This document shows positions 21,254 to 64,000 of a stretch of 64,000 nucleotides of DNA, one piece after another; positions within the stretch are counted from its first letter, which is position 1; each line of letters starts with the position of its first letter. The stretch is from assembly GCF_002873135.1 (NCBI RefSeq), contig NZ_MCVI01000010.1:21260-85259 (forward strand), read 5' to 3'. The translations under genes and the position numbers were made by a program. The notes beneath the pieces were generated by a model, which was not told where the DNA came from, did no database searches, and was given only the letters and a program-made list of their open reading frames with translations. The DNA is from Shewanella sp. 10N.286.48.A6. GTDB lineage: Bacteria > Pseudomonadota > Gammaproteobacteria > Enterobacterales > Shewanellaceae.

Positions 21254-21497
21254 TTATTTAAACGCTAATAAACATTCAGTTTGAGAGTACTAAATGGCGA
21301 ATTCCGTCAATTTGAAACTTAATAACCACAATACATCTAGTGTTACTATTGTTGCGCGTCACAACAGTGGCTGGTAATGGGATTCATCTCACGCCGCGCA
21401 GGCTTGACTATGTAATCAAGCAACCAAAAACAATGCTTTATCTTACCTATTACTCTGTTTACATTGTTGTCATTAAAAAATAAGGGAGAACGCTTTA

Positions 21498-54977: not shown

Positions 54978-55717
54978 TTCCTAAAAAATATGTTTAACAA
55001 AAGGTTTTGATGAAAAATAGACTAGCTTACTTACTTCCCTACATAAGCTAGCTTTAGTTATGCCTCTCTTGTCATTTAAATTGCTCGGTTACATCTAATA
55101 CTCTCAGTGTTCATTTTTACACGAAAAAAACTCTACCAACTCTCATCTTTACCGCCGAGACTCAACGCAATTGATTTCCGAGAACATATACTAAAGAGAT
55201 AAAACAATATTTAGAATTCATTTAGATCATACAATTAACATTGCTTGAAATTTATTATGTATTTACTGTCATTATTTATACGTTTATTAAATATTATTTG
55301 AACTTTACAAAGTTATTTTTTGATACTTAGGTTGTCAAATTGTTAATAAAGTTAAATTCTTTGCGTTATATTGTTTATTAATTATTTAAACTTTTATCTA
55401 TATTTAACTCGATAGGTTGATTTTTGATCTAATTTAATGTTGCGCGCAACAAAAGTGCAAACTTTATATTTATATTTGGTAACAACTGTCCATCGTGTAT
55501 TTGTAAGTGGTTGTTTTTATGTGATTAACTTAACTTGTAACACGATCTCATTTTATGTTGTATCTTACGCAACCCTATTGGTTATTTATTTGTGAAATTT
55601 GTTGACTAAGGTCGCCTTATTTAACAATAATGACTTTAGTTGACTAAATTAGTTAACCTAAAAATTATAAATATAACGTTGTGGGTTTATTTGAAACATG
55701 ACGAAGGGAGTATAATA
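54978..55717. other. Long AT-rich leader region before the first TonB receptor
   Basis: About 740 nt, strongly AT-rich, with no gene that I can support on either strand. The 14-bp palindrome at 55438-55451 and an AAGGGAG ribosome site at 55704-55710 are the only clear signals. Confidence 0.55.
55438..55451. promoter_or_regulatory. 14-bp palindrome upstream of the first TonB-dependent receptor
   Basis: TGTTGCGCGCAACA is perfectly symmetric and GC-centred within an AT-rich region, 267 nt before the receptor start. The central CG and its length fit LacI-family operators, but the regulator is not in this window. Confidence 0.5.
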
Positions 55718-58480
55718 ATGAGTTCATTATCTTTAACTGCTAAGGCTATTCGCCGTGGCTTATTTACTGTAGCTGCAACAGCGGTCGCAACAACTTCATC
55801 TTTTTCTGTTAGCGCTGCTGAAGAAGCTCAAGTTGAAAAAGTAGAGCGTATTGCCGTTACTGGTTCACGCATTAAACGTACAGATATGGAATCGGCTAGC
55901 CCGTTAACCGTTATTGACGCATCAGCAATTATTGCTTCTGGTGCCACTTCTATTGATGACGTATTACAGAAGATGACCTCTTCTGGCGGCGCGATGACTA
56001 ACGCTGCCGTAAACAACGGTTCTGGCGGTAATGCTCGTGTAAACCTTCGTGGTTTAGGTTCTAACCGTACCTTAGTTCTTGTTAACGGCCGTCGTATGAT
56101 TGCATCAGGTACTGGCGCAGCGTCTTCAGTTGATTTAAACACAATCCCAGTTTCTATGATCCAACGTGTTGAAGTACTAAAAGACGGCGCATCAGCAGTT
56201 TATGGTACTGATGCTATCGCTGGTGTAGTTAACGTAATCTTAAAACGTGATTTTGATGGTTTTGAGCTAAATGTTCAAACGGGTATTTCAGGTCAAGGTG
56301 ATGCAGATGAATCAAGCATTGACTTCACTATGGGTAATACCTTCGATAAAGGTAACGTTGTAATCAACGCTCAGTACACTAAGCGTGGCGATGCAAGTCA
56401 AGCAGATCGTGATTTCTCTGATTGTCCTATCGCAGAAGGTGCTGACGGCCTATATTGTGCTGGTAGTTCATATTCTGAAGGCGGTCACATTTGGGGTGAT
56501 TACCTACATAACATGACCAAAAGTGGTACAGATGAAGATGGCAACGCTATCAGCATTATTGGTGATGCAGGCAAATATGGTCAGTATGTTGCTAATGAAA
56601 AAGGCGAGGCTGAATTCGAATATTTTGAAGGCATATCTGAAGCCGACCTAAGTGGTTTAGGTGGTGAATACCACGAGTTCACAAATGATGATCGTTATAA
56701 CTACGCTAAAGATAGTTTCCTATCTACACCAATGGAGCGTTTAAACCTTAGTTTTGCTGGTACTTACGAGCTTTCAGATAACGTCATGTTCTTCTCTGAA
56801 GCGATGTATTCTAAGCGTTGGTCTGATCAACAAATGGCGCCACAGCCAATTTGGAACGGTTCTCCTTGGGAATACAAGCCAATGGCAGATGGCGGCTTTA
56901 TGACTGATGACTTGTTACCATGGGTAGAATCGGGTGAAAAGTTAAGCTATGGTCGCCGTATGGTTGAGTCAGGTTCTCGTGACTTTTCACAAGTTGTCGA
57001 TACTATTCGTTTAGTTGTTGGACTTGAAGGTGAGTTTGAAAACGGTTGGACTTGGGATGCGTCTTACAACAAAGGTAAGAATGACTCAGTTGATACACTC
57101 GCTAACTTACACAACATTGGTTCAATCAATGACGCTGTTTTAGAAGGAAGCTTTGATCCATTCCTACAGTCTTCTTGGATGGGCGAGAGCATTGCACCAT
57201 TTATTTACACTGAAGTTAACTCTGGTGGCAGTGAGTTAGATATCGCTGCAGCATCACTTGCTGGTGACATTGTCGATTTACCTGCCGGTACCATGGGCTT
57301 TGCTGCAGGTTACGAGTTCCGTAAAGAATCTGCTTACTACACGCCTGATTCACTCACTGCGCAAGGTTTAGCGAACGACCCACGTGTTGAAGCAACAGCC
57401 GGTTCATTTGATGTTAATGAGTTTTATGCTGAATTGGCTATCCCATTATTAAGTGGTTTACCTTTGGCTGAGCAAGTTGACTTAAGCGCTGCTATTCGTT
57501 ACTTCGATTACAGCACTTTTGGTTCTGATAATACTTGGAAGTTAGGTTTAACTTGGCGTTTGTTTGATGACTTAATGGTTCGTGGTGTGCAATCAACAGC
57601 ATTCCGTGCTCCAACTGTATCTGAGTTATACGGTGGTAAGTCTCCTTCATTTGACCAAATTGTTCACCCTGCAACAGAACAAACTCAAGCAGAAGTAACA
57701 GTTGGTGGTAACGAGCTATTAACCCCAGAAGAAGCTGATATCACCACTGTTGGTTTAGTTTACTCACCAAGCTTTGTTGAAGGTTTATCTTTAACTGTTG
57801 ATTACTACAACATTGAAATCAGCAACACGATTACATCCGTTGATTCTAACTATGTAGCGAATCAGTGTTTAGATGCAAATGGCAACACAATCAATACAGG
57901 TACTGCATTATGTCAGTCAGCTAATATCTCAATAGATGCTACTGGTCGTATCAAGTTTGACAATGGTTTACAAAACATTGGTGAAACTAACACTGCGGGT
58001 TATGACGTAAACATTGCTTATACTTTTGACGCACTAGGTTTAGATTGGAAAGCAGGTCTTGATACTTCTATCTTAGATACCTATGAAGAATTTGACCAAG
58101 ACGGCAATGCAGTTGATTACAAAGGCTTCATTACTGGTGGTGTTGGTGCTTATGCTGAATTTAAAACCAACTTCAACTTAACTGCAGCTGGTGATGATTG
58201 GTCAGCTACTTATGAAGCGCGTTACATTGATGGTATGGACTCATTTGCTTGTAAAGATGATCCAGCTGATTGTTATGCACCGTCTGTTGATTCAATCGTC
58301 TATCACGATATCTCAGCATCATACGATGTGACTAACAATGTAAGATTATCTGGTGGCGTGAACAACCTATTAGATGAAGAGCCACCTTACTACACTGGTA
58401 ACAATGACTCTAATACCGATCCATACACTTATGATGTACTAGGTCGTTACTTCTTCGTTAGAGCAAGCGTTAAGTTTTAA
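55718..58480 (+). CDS. TonB-dependent outer-membrane receptor (first of a tandem pair)
   Basis: A 920-residue receptor that imports a ligand across the outer membrane using TonB energy. It has a signal peptide ending near residue 33 (SFSVSAAEE), a TonB-box region (EKVERIAVTGSRIKR), and a plug domain (ASPLTVIDASAII ... NLRGLGSNRTLVLVNGRRM ... VEVLKDGASAVYGTDAIAGVVNVILKRDFDG). The 22-strand barrel follows and ends in a terminal strand finishing RASVKF. The ligand cannot be told from sequence. The frame opens upstream to 55640, but ATG 55718 with AAGGGAG gives the signal peptide. The second receptor downstream has a very similar N-terminus. Confidence 0.95.
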   Translation: MSSLSLTAKAIRRGLFTVAATAVATTSSFSVSAAEEAQVEKVERIAVTGSRIKRTDMESASPLTVIDASAIIASGATSIDDVLQKMTSSGGAMTNAAVNNGSGGNARVNLRGLGSNRTLVLVNGRRMIASGTGAASSVDLNTIPVSMIQRVEVLKDGASAVYGTDAIAGVVNVILKRDFDGFELNVQTGISGQGDADESSIDFTMGNTFDKGNVVINAQYTKRGDASQADRDFSDCPIAEGADGLYCAGSSYSEGGHIWGDYLHNMTKSGTDEDGNAISIIGDAGKYGQYVANEKGEAEFEYFEGISEADLSGLGGEYHEFTNDDRYNYAKDSFLSTPMERLNLSFAGTYELSDNVMFFSEAMYSKRWSDQQMAPQPIWNGSPWEYKPMADGGFMTDDLLPWVESGEKLSYGRRMVESGSRDFSQVVDTIRLVVGLEGEFENGWTWDASYNKGKNDSVDTLANLHNIGSINDAVLEGSFDPFLQSSWMGESIAPFIYTEVNSGGSELDIAAASLAGDIVDLPAGTMGFAAGYEFRKESAYYTPDSLTAQGLANDPRVEATAGSFDVNEFYAELAIPLLSGLPLAEQVDLSAAIRYFDYSTFGSDNTWKLGLTWRLFDDLMVRGVQSTAFRAPTVSELYGGKSPSFDQIVHPATEQTQAEVTVGGNELLTPEEADITTVGLVYSPSFVEGLSLTVDYYNIEISNTITSVDSNYVANQCLDANGNTINTGTALCQSANISIDATGRIKFDNGLQNIGETNTAGYDVNIAYTFDALGLDWKAGLDTSILDTYEEFDQDGNAVDYKGFITGGVGAYAEFKTNFNLTAAGDDWSATYEARYIDGMDSFACKDDPADCYAPSVDSIVYHDISASYDVTNNVRLSGGVNNLLDEEPPYYTGNNDSNTDPYTYDVLGRYFFVRASVKF

Positions 58481-58906: not shown

Positions 58907-61621
58907 ATGAGTACAATGACATTAACAGCAAGAGCGATCCGTCGCGGTTTGCTTGCAGCAGCTGCCACATCAGTTGCGTTTTCGGGGGTCGCTTTTGCAG
59001 AAGAAGTGGCTGAAAAAGTAGAGCGTATAGAAGTAACAGGTTCACGTATCAAGCAAGTTGATATGGAAACTTCTTCACCAGTTACCGTATTAAGTGCTGC
59101 TGATATTGCATTAACAGGTGAGAAAACAGTTGCTGATGTATTAAACAACTCTTCTATAAATGCATTTGGCTCATGGCGTGGTACGTCAGGGTACGGTTCA
59201 GGAGCTAGTGCAACGAGTTCTGTCAACATGCGCGGGCTGGGCGCTCAAGCAACGCTAGTACTACTTGATGGTCGTCGTATGCCTGGTACTAGTTCAAGTT
59301 CAGGTGCCACTGCTGATACCTCACAGATCCCATTAGCTATTGTAGAACGTATCGAAATCTTACGTGACGGCGCTTCTGCTGTTTATGGTTCTGATGCTGT
59401 TGCTGGCGTTATTAACATTATCACTAAAAAAGAATTTGATGGATTCCAATTAGATTTCAGTACCGAGCAACCTTCAGTTGAAGGTGGTGATGCTAACCGT
59501 TTCTCAATTGCCACAGGCTTTAATACTGATAAAGGCAATATCACTTTTACTTATGAGTACTATGATACTAAATCAGTCATGGACCGTGATATTTGGAACA
59601 TGGATGATCCATCTTATGGTGATTACAGTCCATTTAGCTCTGTACCAAATGGTTATTATAACACTGGTGTTCAAGACACTAATGAAGATGGTACTCCAGC
59701 CTTTGATGATGATGGTGAACCAATCTATGTTTACGATTTTTATTCAAACTCTGACATGTGTGACCAAACTGAGAATGTCTCAAATGGTATTGGTGAAGAC
59801 AATAGTGGCCGTTGTTACTACAGTTATGGTGAAGTAACCAAATTATTTGGTGATATGGAACGTAATTCGTTCATGACCAATTTTAATTATCAAATCACTG
59901 ATGACATTCAATTCCGTGGTCGTGGTTCAGCATCGCTAAGTGAAACAAATACTCGATATGCTGGTACGCCAGTCTCTACTAATTACCCTGTCTTAGCTGC
60001 GGATAACCAATACAATCCGACTGGTAAAGACATGAAGCTGTACATGCGTTCGGTACAAATCGGTGAACGTGATACGTTAACAGAAACCAACAACTTTGAT
60101 ATTTTAGGTGGATTTGTAGGTTTTGCTGATGTGGGTAATGGTATTGATTGGGAATTAAATGCCCAATACTCAGGTTCTACAACTAACTCGTTTAATTACA
60201 ATTTGATAAATGACAGCATTATTCAAAGAGAGTTAGATACAGGTAATTACGATATTTTCAATACTACCGGTATGAGCTATGAAGATTGGGATCAGCAAAT
60301 GACAGCGCTTTACAGTGCTGCGAATCATACTGGTGTTTATCAAGGTAAGTTCGACAGCACTCAAATTGACGGTTTAGCTTCAACATTATTAGTGGAAAAC
60401 GATACCATTTCTTTAGCAATGTTAGTTGGTGCTGAATATGAAATGATTAACTTCAAGCAAATGTCAGATCCTGAATCTGCTTCAGGTATTATTTCAGGCG
60501 GTTCAGGTGGTGATGATGTTGATGCTGAGCGTGATCGCACCGCAGCATATACTGAAATTCAATTAGGCCTACCAGCGAATATTGATGTATCTATGGCTGT
60601 TCGTTATGAAAGATACGAGCAATCAGGTACGTTAACTGGCGCGAGTGGTGAAATCGTTAATTCTTCAACATTTGATGCAGTAGTACCTAAGTTAGGCGTC
60701 AGTTGGAGACCGGTTGATTCATTACTTGTTCGTGCAAGTTATGGTGACTCCTTCCGTGCGCCAAATATGGGTGAGATGTTCTCTTCACAATCACTTAGCT
60801 TTGAAACCGCGTATGACTCAGTTTGGTGTGAGGCTAATAATGACTCTGACGCTAACTATTGTGCAACAGCTAATCAGCATAAAACCTGGTTTGGTGGTAA
60901 CCCAAATCTAGAAGCTGAAGAAGGTAACTCGCTAACTTTAGGTGCAGTTTGGAATGCGACTGATGCTTGGAGCATTGAGCTTTCTTACTATGACATTACC
61001 TACGACAATAAAATCGAAGCGGTTAGTGCAACAGATGTTATCCGTGATGAAAAAATTAACGGTAGTTCAGAGTTAGTTCACCGTGGAAGTGATGGAAAAA
61101 TTGAGTACCTAGAAAGTGGTTATATCAATATGTCATCAGTTAAAACCTCAGGTTTTGACTTTGCAACCACTTACAATGTTGAAACAGGTTTTGGTGACTT
61201 CAACTTTAAAGTTGATTTAACTCATATCCTAGAGTTTGAAGAGCAAGCGAATGCAGAGTCTGAAGCAATTGACCTAGCTGGTATTCAAGATTATCCAGAA
61301 TGGCGTGGTAACTTTGCCGCAGCTTGGTATTACAACGACTTTAATGCTGCTTGGACTACGGTTTATATCGGCAGTCAGTCTGGTGATTACTGGCGTGATC
61401 TTGGCTACAGCTATATCACAGATACTCCTGATTACTTTAAGCATAATTTCCAAGTCGGTTACACACATGACTGGGATGGCACTGTAACAGTAGGTGTTAA
61501 CAACCTGTTTGATGAAAAAGCGCCAACTTGGTATGACTTTGCGGGCTATCGTGATGTGAACACAGGTCTATATGATGTATTAGGTCGTACTTATTATGTT
61601 CGCTTAAGCCAAAAGTTCTAA
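58907..61621 (+). CDS. TonB-dependent outer-membrane receptor (second of a tandem pair)
   Basis: A 904-residue receptor. The start (MSTMTLTARAIRRGLLAAAATSVAFSGVAFAEE) closely resembles the first receptor's signal peptide. The TonB-box region is EKVERIEVTGSRIKQ; the plug has 'NMRGLGAQATLVLLDGRRMPG' and 'IEILRDGASAVYGSDAVAGVINIITKKEFDG'. The barrel ends in VRLSQKF. It differs from the first receptor through most of the barrel, so the two probably bind different ligands. It has its own spacing and both neighbours end in terminators, so it is likely transcribed alone. Confidence 0.95.
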   Translation: MSTMTLTARAIRRGLLAAAATSVAFSGVAFAEEVAEKVERIEVTGSRIKQVDMETSSPVTVLSAADIALTGEKTVADVLNNSSINAFGSWRGTSGYGSGASATSSVNMRGLGAQATLVLLDGRRMPGTSSSSGATADTSQIPLAIVERIEILRDGASAVYGSDAVAGVINIITKKEFDGFQLDFSTEQPSVEGGDANRFSIATGFNTDKGNITFTYEYYDTKSVMDRDIWNMDDPSYGDYSPFSSVPNGYYNTGVQDTNEDGTPAFDDDGEPIYVYDFYSNSDMCDQTENVSNGIGEDNSGRCYYSYGEVTKLFGDMERNSFMTNFNYQITDDIQFRGRGSASLSETNTRYAGTPVSTNYPVLAADNQYNPTGKDMKLYMRSVQIGERDTLTETNNFDILGGFVGFADVGNGIDWELNAQYSGSTTNSFNYNLINDSIIQRELDTGNYDIFNTTGMSYEDWDQQMTALYSAANHTGVYQGKFDSTQIDGLASTLLVENDTISLAMLVGAEYEMINFKQMSDPESASGIISGGSGGDDVDAERDRTAAYTEIQLGLPANIDVSMAVRYERYEQSGTLTGASGEIVNSSTFDAVVPKLGVSWRPVDSLLVRASYGDSFRAPNMGEMFSSQSLSFETAYDSVWCEANNDSDANYCATANQHKTWFGGNPNLEAEEGNSLTLGAVWNATDAWSIELSYYDITYDNKIEAVSATDVIRDEKINGSSELVHRGSDGKIEYLESGYINMSSVKTSGFDFATTYNVETGFGDFNFKVDLTHILEFEEQANAESEAIDLAGIQDYPEWRGNFAAAWYYNDFNAAWTTVYIGSQSGDYWRDLGYSYITDTPDYFKHNFQVGYTHDWDGTVTVGVNNLFDEKAPTWYDFAGYRDVNTGLYDVLGRTYYVRLSQKF

Positions 61622-62481: not shown

Positions 62482-63438
62482 TTAGCCGTTAGTCGCTAAC
62501 TGTTGTTCATGGGCTTTTTCTAAAATGGCAATGATACCTTCAGCCGTTTTAAGCACTCTGAGCTCTCTGAATAACACATCAGCTTCAGGGTACTGTTTAT
62601 TCAAATAAGTAAACCATTGCTTTACTCGGGCAGGGTAATAATCAATTTTCTTGTTAACCAACTGCTTTTGGGTGTAGTTCAGTAACAAATTTAGCGTTTG
62701 TGACCAAGTGTAAGGCGCTTCAACGCCTTTTATGGTGGCAGCAAGGTTTGGCAGAGACATTGCCCCGCGCCCCAGCATTATGCTGTCACAGCCTGTAACT
62801 GCCATACAGCGCTTAGCATCATCACTGTTCCAGATTTCACCATTGGCAATAATAGGAATAGGTAAGCGCTCACGCACTTCGGTTATGTATTCCCAATAAG
62901 CTGGCGGTTTGTACCCGTCAGTTTTACTGCGAGCATGAATAGCAAGCTCGGTTGCACCCGCTTCATACACAGCGATGGCGTTTTCCATAAATAACGACTT
63001 ATCTTCGTAACCGAGACGGATTTTAGCAGTAACAGGTTGATCTGCTGGTACTGCATCACGCATTGCTTTGACTATATCGTGAATTTTATCCGGGTATTGC
63101 AGTAATACAGCGCCGCCATTACTGCGGTTAACCATTTTAGCAGGGCAGCCAAAGTTAGCATCAACACCGCGTGAGCCTAGCTCGACGGCGCGCTGGGCGT
63201 TTTCTGCCATCACTTGCGGATGTTGCCCTAATAATTGAATTCTTACCGGGGTGCCTGATGCGGTCAAGCCGCCATTACGCAGCTCAGGGCATAATTTATG
63301 ATAAACCTTCTCAGGAAGTAACTGATTAATCACCCGCACAAATTCGGTTACCACCAAATCATAAGGGTTGATTTCAGATAAAATTTCTCGCATCAAATCA
63401 TCAATGACGCCTTCCATCGGAGCTAAGACTACGTGCAC
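62482..63438 (-). CDS. dusC: tRNA-dihydrouridine(16) synthase DusC
   Basis: A 318-residue FMN enzyme that reduces uridine to dihydrouridine in tRNA. The catalytic cysteine is C98 in NFGCPAK. FMN-binding segments are LAPMEGV, 'IHARSKTDGYKPPAYW', IIANGEIW and MLGRGAM. The sequence follows E. coli DusC (YohI) rather than DusA or DusB, notably 'EFVRVINQLLPEKVYHKLCPEL'. The start is the ATG giving MHVVLAPMEG. Confidence 0.92.
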   Translation of the reverse strand: MHVVLAPMEGVIDDLMREILSEINPYDLVVTEFVRVINQLLPEKVYHKLCPELRNGGLTASGTPVRIQLLGQHPQVMAENAQRAVELGSRGVDANFGCPAKMVNRSNGGAVLLQYPDKIHDIVKAMRDAVPADQPVTAKIRLGYEDKSLFMENAIAVYEAGATELAIHARSKTDGYKPPAYWEYITEVRERLPIPIIANGEIWNSDDAKRCMAVTGCDSIMLGRGAMSLPNLAATIKGVEAPYTWSQTLNLLLNYTQKQLVNKKIDYYPARVKQWFTYLNKQYPEADVLFRELRVLKTAEGIIAILEKAHEQQLATNG

Positions 63439-63752
63439 AGTACTACCTGGTTAACTATAAAAGGAGCGCTATTCTAGCGAGTTTAATTTTTTATACAAAT
63501 TCATTTCAAGTATTTGAATTCACTGTTATCTGCTGCAACTGAATATTTAATCTTTTATATCAAGTTGATAGATGAATATTTTGTCCTATCCTTAATCATT
63601 AGAGAACTTCTCTAGCAATATTTTTAATAAAAAATGATGATTTAGATCAATTAATGTGAAATAAAAGTAACAGGTTGTAGGTCTATTCATCTGTAAGCCA
63701 GCACTGTTTGTTGTTGGTCATCATTATTAAGTTTGAATTTAAGGAAATTATT
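63439..63752. other. Intergenic region between dusC and the hvfA-like gene
   Basis: About 310 nt, AT-rich, with divergent promoters expected. It contains the 15-bp palindrome at 63600-63614. No gene is seen. Confidence 0.5.
63600..63614. promoter_or_regulatory. Palindrome upstream of the hvfA-like gene
   Basis: TAGAGAA-C-TTCTCTA, a perfect 7-1-7 palindrome, 139 nt before the ATG. No known regulator matches with confidence. Confidence 0.4.
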
Positions 63753-64000
63753 ATGAACTCAGTAAAGCAAACAACAGTCGCATTGGCATTAGGTGCAGTC
63801 GTATTAACCGCTGGCGTATCTACGTCTGTAGAGGCTAATCCATTTGGTTTTGAGCAAATGAATTCAGGTTATCAGTTAGATGGCGGCGATAAAAAAGCTA
63901 AAGAAGGCAAGTGTGGTGAAGGTAAATGCGGCGGCGATATGAAAAAAGCCAAAGAAGGCAAATGTGGCGAAGGCAAGTGTGGCGGTGACATGAAAAAAGC
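63753..64000 (+). CDS. hvfA: HvfA-like RiPP metallophore precursor, partial (cut by the right edge)
   Basis: Eighty-two codons are visible and the frame is open at the edge. Residues 1-29 form a signal peptide (MNSVKQTTVALALGAVVLTAGV, cleavage near VEANP). After a short lead (FGFEQMNSGYQLDGGDKKA) comes a 17-residue tandem repeat (KEGKCGEGKCGGDMKKA) at residues 50-66 and 67 onward, with Cys54, Cys59, Cys71 and Cys76 each in EGKCG. Such exported proteins with repeated EGKCG motifs are described as HvfA family precursors whose cysteines are turned into oxazolone/thioamide groups by a DUF692 (MNIO) enzyme with a DUF2063 partner, giving copper-binding products. The partner genes would be expected just downstream, outside the window. 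AAGGAAA lies 6 nt before the ATG. Confidence 0.82.
   Translation, partial: MNSVKQTTVALALGAVVLTAGVSTSVEANPFGFEQMNSGYQLDGGDKKAKEGKCGEGKCGGDMKKAKEGKCGEGKCGGDMKK

Follow-up and report, generated by a model that had tools for sequence, protein, structure and literature searches.

The window analysed here, a 64,000-nt stretch (positions 21,260 to 85,259) of contig NZ_MCVI01000010.1 in the 4.65-Mb assembly of Shewanella sp. 10N.286.48.A6, ends within an open reading frame (ORF) with tandem EGKCG motifs, which raises the question of what kind of peptide this frame encodes, which proteins would act on it and how their genes are switched on. The frame was identified as the 5′ part of hvfA, encoding the precursor of a ribosomally synthesized and post-translationally modified peptide (RiPP). 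Enzyme genes hvfB and hvfC follow it, a DoxX-family partner gene, hvfX, lies unlinked in the genome, and hvfA and hvfX share a promoter-like element. Read jointly, these observations make it highly probable that the locus belongs to an HvfA-type copper-peptide pathway, in which a promoter of the extracytoplasmic function (ECF) type would drive hvfABC and the unlinked hvfX jointly.

The precursor gene hvfA and its repeats

The features of the precursor gene in the window are as follows.

63753..64000, + strand: hvfA, 5′ part of the EGKCG-repeat RiPP precursor gene, running on past the window (frame and NF050137)
63753..63836, + strand: probable Sec signal peptide, residues 1-28 (judged by eye)
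63903..63932, + strand: first EGKCGEGKCG pair (sequence reading; NF050137)
63954..63983, + strand: second EGKCGEGKCG pair, 51 bp past the first (sequence reading; NF050137)

The frame opened by the ATG at 63753 stays open through the window end, and its 82 codons contain four Cys, each within an EGKCG motif; the two pairs start at 63903 and 63954, a spacing of exactly 51 bp. By eye, the N-terminus shows one Lys, a hydrophobic stretch and V-E-A ahead of N29. The visible piece had no Pfam match, and the NCBIfam model NF050137 (KCGExKCG_twice, HvfA family) matched the precursor in two stretches with 51.2 bits (cut-off 19.5; E 6.8e-14). Directly past the window end the contig shows 704 N (assembly gap or mask), after which hvfA resumes for 40 codons with four further EGKCG motifs and a stop codon, giving at least eight EGKCG in this strain (four in the window and four past the N run). 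The first-pass annotation had proposed an exported HvfA-type precursor with 51-bp double-EGKCG repeats; frame, repeats and NF050137 agree with the HvfA assignment, and the frame does not end early without further motifs. Since an N run of 704 would place the two parts of hvfA out of frame, it does not represent an exact length and the array length was not taken from it. The relation 703 = 40 + 13 x 51 may be a coincidence, given the five pairs of the nearest relative.

Related loci were taken as the best 80 of 229 candidates in named genomes of Shewanella, Parashewanella, Pseudoalteromonas and neighbours, the closest named relative at the locus being Shewanella sp. UCD-KL21 (L043; HvfB 98% identical). 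A complete precursor was present in 77 of the 80, the other three being cut by contig ends. These 77 precursors carry 2-24 KCG motifs (median 12), and in 70 of them every Cys lies within KCG. The precursors of L092 and L094, two loci with 97.4% identity over 12.7 kb, differ by one 17-residue unit; P0001, which has the same N-terminus as the window's frame, contains three pairs as opposed to five in L043. Counting of repeat units across the relatives thus bore out the earlier suggestion that repeat number varies between strains, whole units being gained or lost. The 17-residue double-EGKCG repeat and its varying number are already in print (PMC12452194). Two single cases were also seen. A Shewanella metagenome-assembled genome near S. 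benthica (L083:5673-5870) encodes an HvfA with two EGKCG only, its relatives having 12 and 9, and in L093:5443-5931 one EGKCG is altered to EGKFG, leaving 13 motifs where the near relatives L092 and L095 have 14.

The enzyme pair HvfB and HvfC

Within the 12 kb of contig read downstream (L002), hvfA is followed by hvfB (277 aa), hvfC (249 aa), a 39-aa ORF, a DUF454 gene and apt. The hvfB product matched PF05114 (DUF692) with 359 bits and the NCBIfam HvfB family NF003818 with 448.6 bits (cut-off 360), while the hvfC product, a DUF2063 protein, matched NCBIfam HvfC (NF050145) with 282 bits (cut-off 142). Both genes were found together by tblastn in 80/80 named loci. Structural matches were PDB 3bww for HvfB, with weaker matches to MbnB and one other MNIO group, and PDB 3dee for HvfC. 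The HvfB residues R12, R13, D247 and F248 are invariant in 81/81 loci, our own included, and also align with PDB 3bww. By motif, in our own mapping, they correspond to Arg15, Arg16, Asp249 and Phe250 of FonB, which have been reported for EGKCG enzymes (PMC13097082).

The chemistry of such enzymes has been revised to a 5-thiooxazole with copper binding (PMC13097082), and the abstract of PMC13419390 likewise gives a 5-thiooxazole product that binds copper. The mass change to be expected is therefore -4 Da per EGKCG and not the oxazolone/thioamide pattern. By analogy with these published relatives, hvfA would give rise to a Sec-exported precursor bearing tandem EGKCG motifs. HvfC, whose DUF2063 family is described as holding a precursor-recognition domain, would present the precursor to HvfB, an iron enzyme that would convert the Lys-Cys of each EGKCG to a 5-thiooxazole; the modified peptide would then be exported and chelate copper in the envelope. 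An unmodified, metallothionein-like Cys repeat protein, with HvfB and HvfC acting on some other substrate, could hold Cu(I) through its many thiols alone. This is very unlikely in view of the joint presence of hvfB and hvfC in all 80 named loci, the four catalytic/selectivity positions kept in every HvfB, and the report that all characterised MNIO-DUF2063 cases install 5-thiooxazole (PMC13097082).

The first-pass annotation had placed the gene in an "HvfA/bufferin class". Its HvfA part holds, while the bufferin part does not: HvfB reached only 270.9 bits with MNIO_BufB (cut-off 310) and the visible part of the precursor, lacking a Pfam match, gives no DUF2282 signal.

The unlinked partner gene hvfX

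Genes for DUF692, DUF2063 and DoxX proteins had been named as possible neighbours downstream of the precursor gene; the first two were present and DoxX was not. Neither the 12 kb of the own locus nor the 80 related loci, eight of which are shorter than 12 kb, contained an HvfX/DoxX match, and a DoxX gene adjacent to hvfABC was thus ruled out. The sole DoxX match of the genome was located on another contig (C20), where it passed the NCBIfam HvfX equivalog NF050144 with 234.4 bits (cut-off 80). The fourth protein of the pathway, HvfX, would accordingly be made from an unlinked gene. HvfX orthologues or weaker relatives were detected in 127/127 genus genomes searched, eight of them with weak matches only; two of these eight (G025 and G030) also lack MNIO. 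In G083, G085 and G127 the DoxX/HvfX match is split or contains stop codons.

A promoter-like element shared by hvfA and hvfX

Alignment of the regions upstream of hvfA yielded a pair of conserved blocks, TGAAAT-N17-GGTCT, which in the window is followed by a predicted hairpin.

63657..63662, + strand: TGAAAT, -35-like element, conserved across related loci (own-genome match C10:84916-84943)
63680..63684, + strand: GGTCT, -10-like element, 17 bases past TGAAAT, conserved in related loci
63697..63718, + strand: predicted leader RNA hairpin near the presumed transcript start (per-sequence folding)

With at most one mismatch, a spacer of exactly 17 and a position within 320 nt upstream of hvfA, the motif was found in 58/58 loci of the Shewanella type (L033-L090, with Parashewanella among them), 50 of them with a perfect match, and in 11/19 other loci; three further loci, truncated ahead of the start, were excluded. 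Seven of the eight misses among the latter 19 showed TGAAAG or TGAAAT with a spacer of 16, a spacing that Pseudoalteromonas loci do use. In the rest of the hvfA loci 13 matches occurred in 1,891,276 nt, that is, 0.002 expected per 320-nt window. The same motif preceded hvfX in 30/30 loci read (the best 30 of the 127 genomes, own included), starting 62-239 nt ahead of the hvfX match, against a background of one match in 160,260 nt. The window's genome contained nine motif matches as compared with two for the reversed control, and one of the nine lies just upstream of hvfX.

These findings suggest that TGAAAT-N17-GGTCT is an ECF-type promoter from which hvfABC and hvfX would be induced together, within an envelope thiol/metal stress regulon. 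A binding site for an activator or repressor common to the same genes is an improbable alternative. It would fit the observation that none of the sigma genes read bears the motif, the sigma factor itself being a candidate. It agrees less well with two blocks held at a fixed 17-base spacing before both genes, as the spacers diverge widely while both blocks are kept, though the loci are related. The position of GGTCT, 64-82 nt ahead of the ATG in the Shewanella-type hvfA loci listed, and its similarity to the -10 element of other ECF promoters likewise speak for a promoter.

Past the putative promoter, 56/58 leaders are predicted to fold into a stem that begins 11-13 nt downstream of GGTCT. The mean folding z was -1.61, a modest value, and z was below -1.5 in 31/58 leaders. 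RNAalifold found no pairs on the gappy leader alignment, so that the leader hairpin is read from per-sequence folding. Its role may be to shield the 5′ end of an mRNA needed in large amounts.

Other genes preceded by the element

Seven other Shewanella genomes contained 53 perfect motif matches, compared with 18 for the reversed pattern. Thirty of the 53 were read, and in 21 of these the motif precedes a gene of one of seven kinds by 27-92 nt: hvfA (3), hvfX (3), an exported AhpC/TSA redoxin (3), a DUF2057 protein (3), a thioredoxin (4), a response regulator (4) and a YHS lipoprotein (1). Family names were assigned by family match for one member each and by visible likeness for the remaining members. 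Among the other nine matches, two lie in long ORFs, two have no nearby ORF start, three are 131-217 nt away, and two (L169 and L181) lie close to a start but were each seen once. In L191 the motif is found 170 nt before the start of a small ORF resembling CutA, a protein named for metal tolerance. Redoxin and DUF2057 motif sites are also carried by the window's own genome. The MNIO-less genomes G025 and G030 showed 0 and 3 matches (controls 2 and 1), and the three fall inside open frames of 125-256 codons.

Candidate sigma factors

Ten sigma-70-type matches were found in the own genome, and no sigma match of G025 or G030 is closest to its ECF factors L129, L130 or RpoE2. L130 is an ECF sigma gene followed by a DUF3379 gene. 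Its co-occurrence with the motif was examined across 148 genomes sampled from the whole order, from which 30 hvfB loci were fetched, L130 being scored as present at E<1e-50. The motif at hvfA was found in 19/22 loci with ECF_L130 and in 0/6 without it (Fisher p 2.2e-4, not ancestry-corrected); G184, with an intermediate sigma match and no motif, and G144, in which the precursor was not found, were left out of the count. The DUF3379-linked factor is the best candidate on this co-occurrence, and it possibly reads TGAAAT-N17-GGTCT, an assignment that is less likely than not to be correct. In G105, MNIO matches were weaker only (best 2.6e-50), despite a strong HvfX orthologue and an L130-type sigma factor.

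ECF_L129 was rejected: G096 and G099 have the motif at hvfA but match this factor only weakly, while the five f7 genomes read match it better (1e-34 to 1e-38) and lack the spacer-17 motif at hvfA. The ordinary sigma-E (RpoE) or RpoE2-ChrR of Shewanella might also be considered as readers, since GGTCT is similar to the -10 element of sigma-E (GTCTA ahead of rpoE). Both were judged unlikely and set aside, because the published S. oneidensis promoters differ, being GAACTT with a TCxA-like -10 for RpoE and TGATCC..CGTAAT for RpoE2 (PMC4336711); moreover, RpoE is present also in G025 and G030, where the motif is at background.

Several observations weigh against the pathway as proposed or against its candidate sigma factor. 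The precursor did not reach the cut-off of 95 bits for the HvfA equivalog NF050188, the cut piece scoring 44.7 bits and the complete L043 relative 87.9 bits, and it was for this reason filed under the HvfA family (NF050137) and not under the equivalog. Six genomes (G036, G060, G061, G076, G103 and G106) keep MNIO with weak DoxX matches only, indicating that the coupling between HvfX and hvfABC is not strict. The motif is absent at the stringency used in three of the 22 L130 genomes (G022, G171 and G203), and two genomes without L130 (G134 and G159) have a one-mismatch, spacer-16 match 272 nt upstream, which was not counted. The association of L130 with the motif is confounded by ancestry (four families versus two), and ECF_L130 is also present where a close HvfB is lacking, e.g. 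in G138. Finally, the ECF_L130 gene itself carried no motif in any of the 30 L130 loci, and autoregulation of the candidate was rejected on that ground.

Neighbouring genes and further loci

One conserved neighbour in the window lies outside the pathway.

62482..63438, - strand: dusC-like gene (dihydrouridine synthase), divergent from hvfA (Pfam PF01207, 256.6 bits)

It was found upstream of hvfB in 76/80 related loci; the loci without it (L075, L099, L107 and L108) are all short on that side. DUF454 and/or apt stand downstream in most of the 80 loci. The 39-aa ORF between hvfC and DUF454/apt (L002:4955-5074, beyond the window) occurs in 72/80 loci with 60-97% identity and had no Pfam match; it may belong with apt/DUF454 rather than with hvf. 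Two successive long ORFs in the window, at 55640-58480 and 58907-61621, resemble TonB-dependent outer-membrane receptors by sequence reading. Many Shewanella genomes possess a second MNIO locus, while the window's genome has one MNIO only. In 12 of 30 such second loci (L003-L032) that were read, a precursor frame with 12-14 Cys was found, and 11 of the 12 showed an HCYG/HCYD motif like that of Buf2 bufferins, a naming taken from the 6/12-Cys description.

Discussion

The locus resembles the oxazolin (hvf) cluster of Haemophilus influenzae in its EGKCG precursor, HvfB, HvfC and DoxX-family partner (PMC13419390, PMC13097082). It differs in that the DoxX gene is part of the cluster there, whereas HvfX is unlinked in the present genome, and in motif number, oxazolin having six 5-thiooxazoles and the present precursor eight motifs outside the N run, with the median of 12 in the 77 relatives. 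The homologous DoxX cluster of H. influenzae is, together with msrAB, under the control of RpoE2 (PMC7907618). The fontiphorin locus fonABC of Fontimonas thermophila is likewise a three-gene locus without DoxX and with EGKCG repeats, and its product bears 5-thiooxazoles and binds copper (PMC13097082). The Microbulbifer mmr cluster also combines EGKCG units with an MNIO/DUF2063 pair; its array, with five to eight Cys and conserved across this marine genus, is shorter than that of Shewanella, and the words 'DoxX' and 'sigma' are absent from the main text (PMC12538549). No difference was seen between the present precursor and the Buf_EGKCG/oxazolin type 1 proteins, a family of 31-506 residues whose longest member has 58 Cys; in the accessible text of that study promoters and unlinked DoxX are not discussed for type 1, and 'Shewanella' does not appear in the main text (PMC12452194). 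Bufferins (DUF2282, Buf2) share the signal peptide, MNIO, DUF2063 and DoxX, but belong to different precursor families, and the Shewanella HvfB stays below the cut-off of their MNIO model. In Caulobacter, sigma-F controls a DUF2282-DUF692-DUF2063-DoxX cluster (PMC3511200). A Shewanella genome paper tabulates, in its accessible part, one DUF692 'RiPP like' cluster without further study (PMC9138089).

The kind of precursor, EGKCG loci without DoxX and ECF control of homologous clusters were thus already known. In the open-access literature nothing was found on the function of the Shewanella locus, on an unlinked HvfX or on a TGAAAT-N17-GGTCT promoter, and it is the split arrangement, linked by its promoter, that deserves the attention of specialists. 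Studies that consider neighbouring genes only will label such loci DoxX-less, although a partner gene, perhaps under common regulation, is present at another place in the genome. A real shared promoter would identify the genes that accompany the metallophore and would allow a direct test of the signal answered (oxidised thiols, copper or hypochlorite) and of the role of HvfX.

A wider proposal is put forward tentatively, as a reading with a reasonable though less than even chance: that Shewanella and related families possess a split, co-regulated module with a shared regulon, governed by a previously undescribed class of ECF promoter, TGAAA[T/G]-N17-GGTCT, which is read by the DUF3379-linked ECF factor. 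If this is true, the exported redoxin, the thioredoxin, the YHS-domain lipoprotein, the DUF2057 protein and the response regulator would belong to the same regulon, and the metallophore would thereby be one arm of an envelope response to thiol oxidation and metal.
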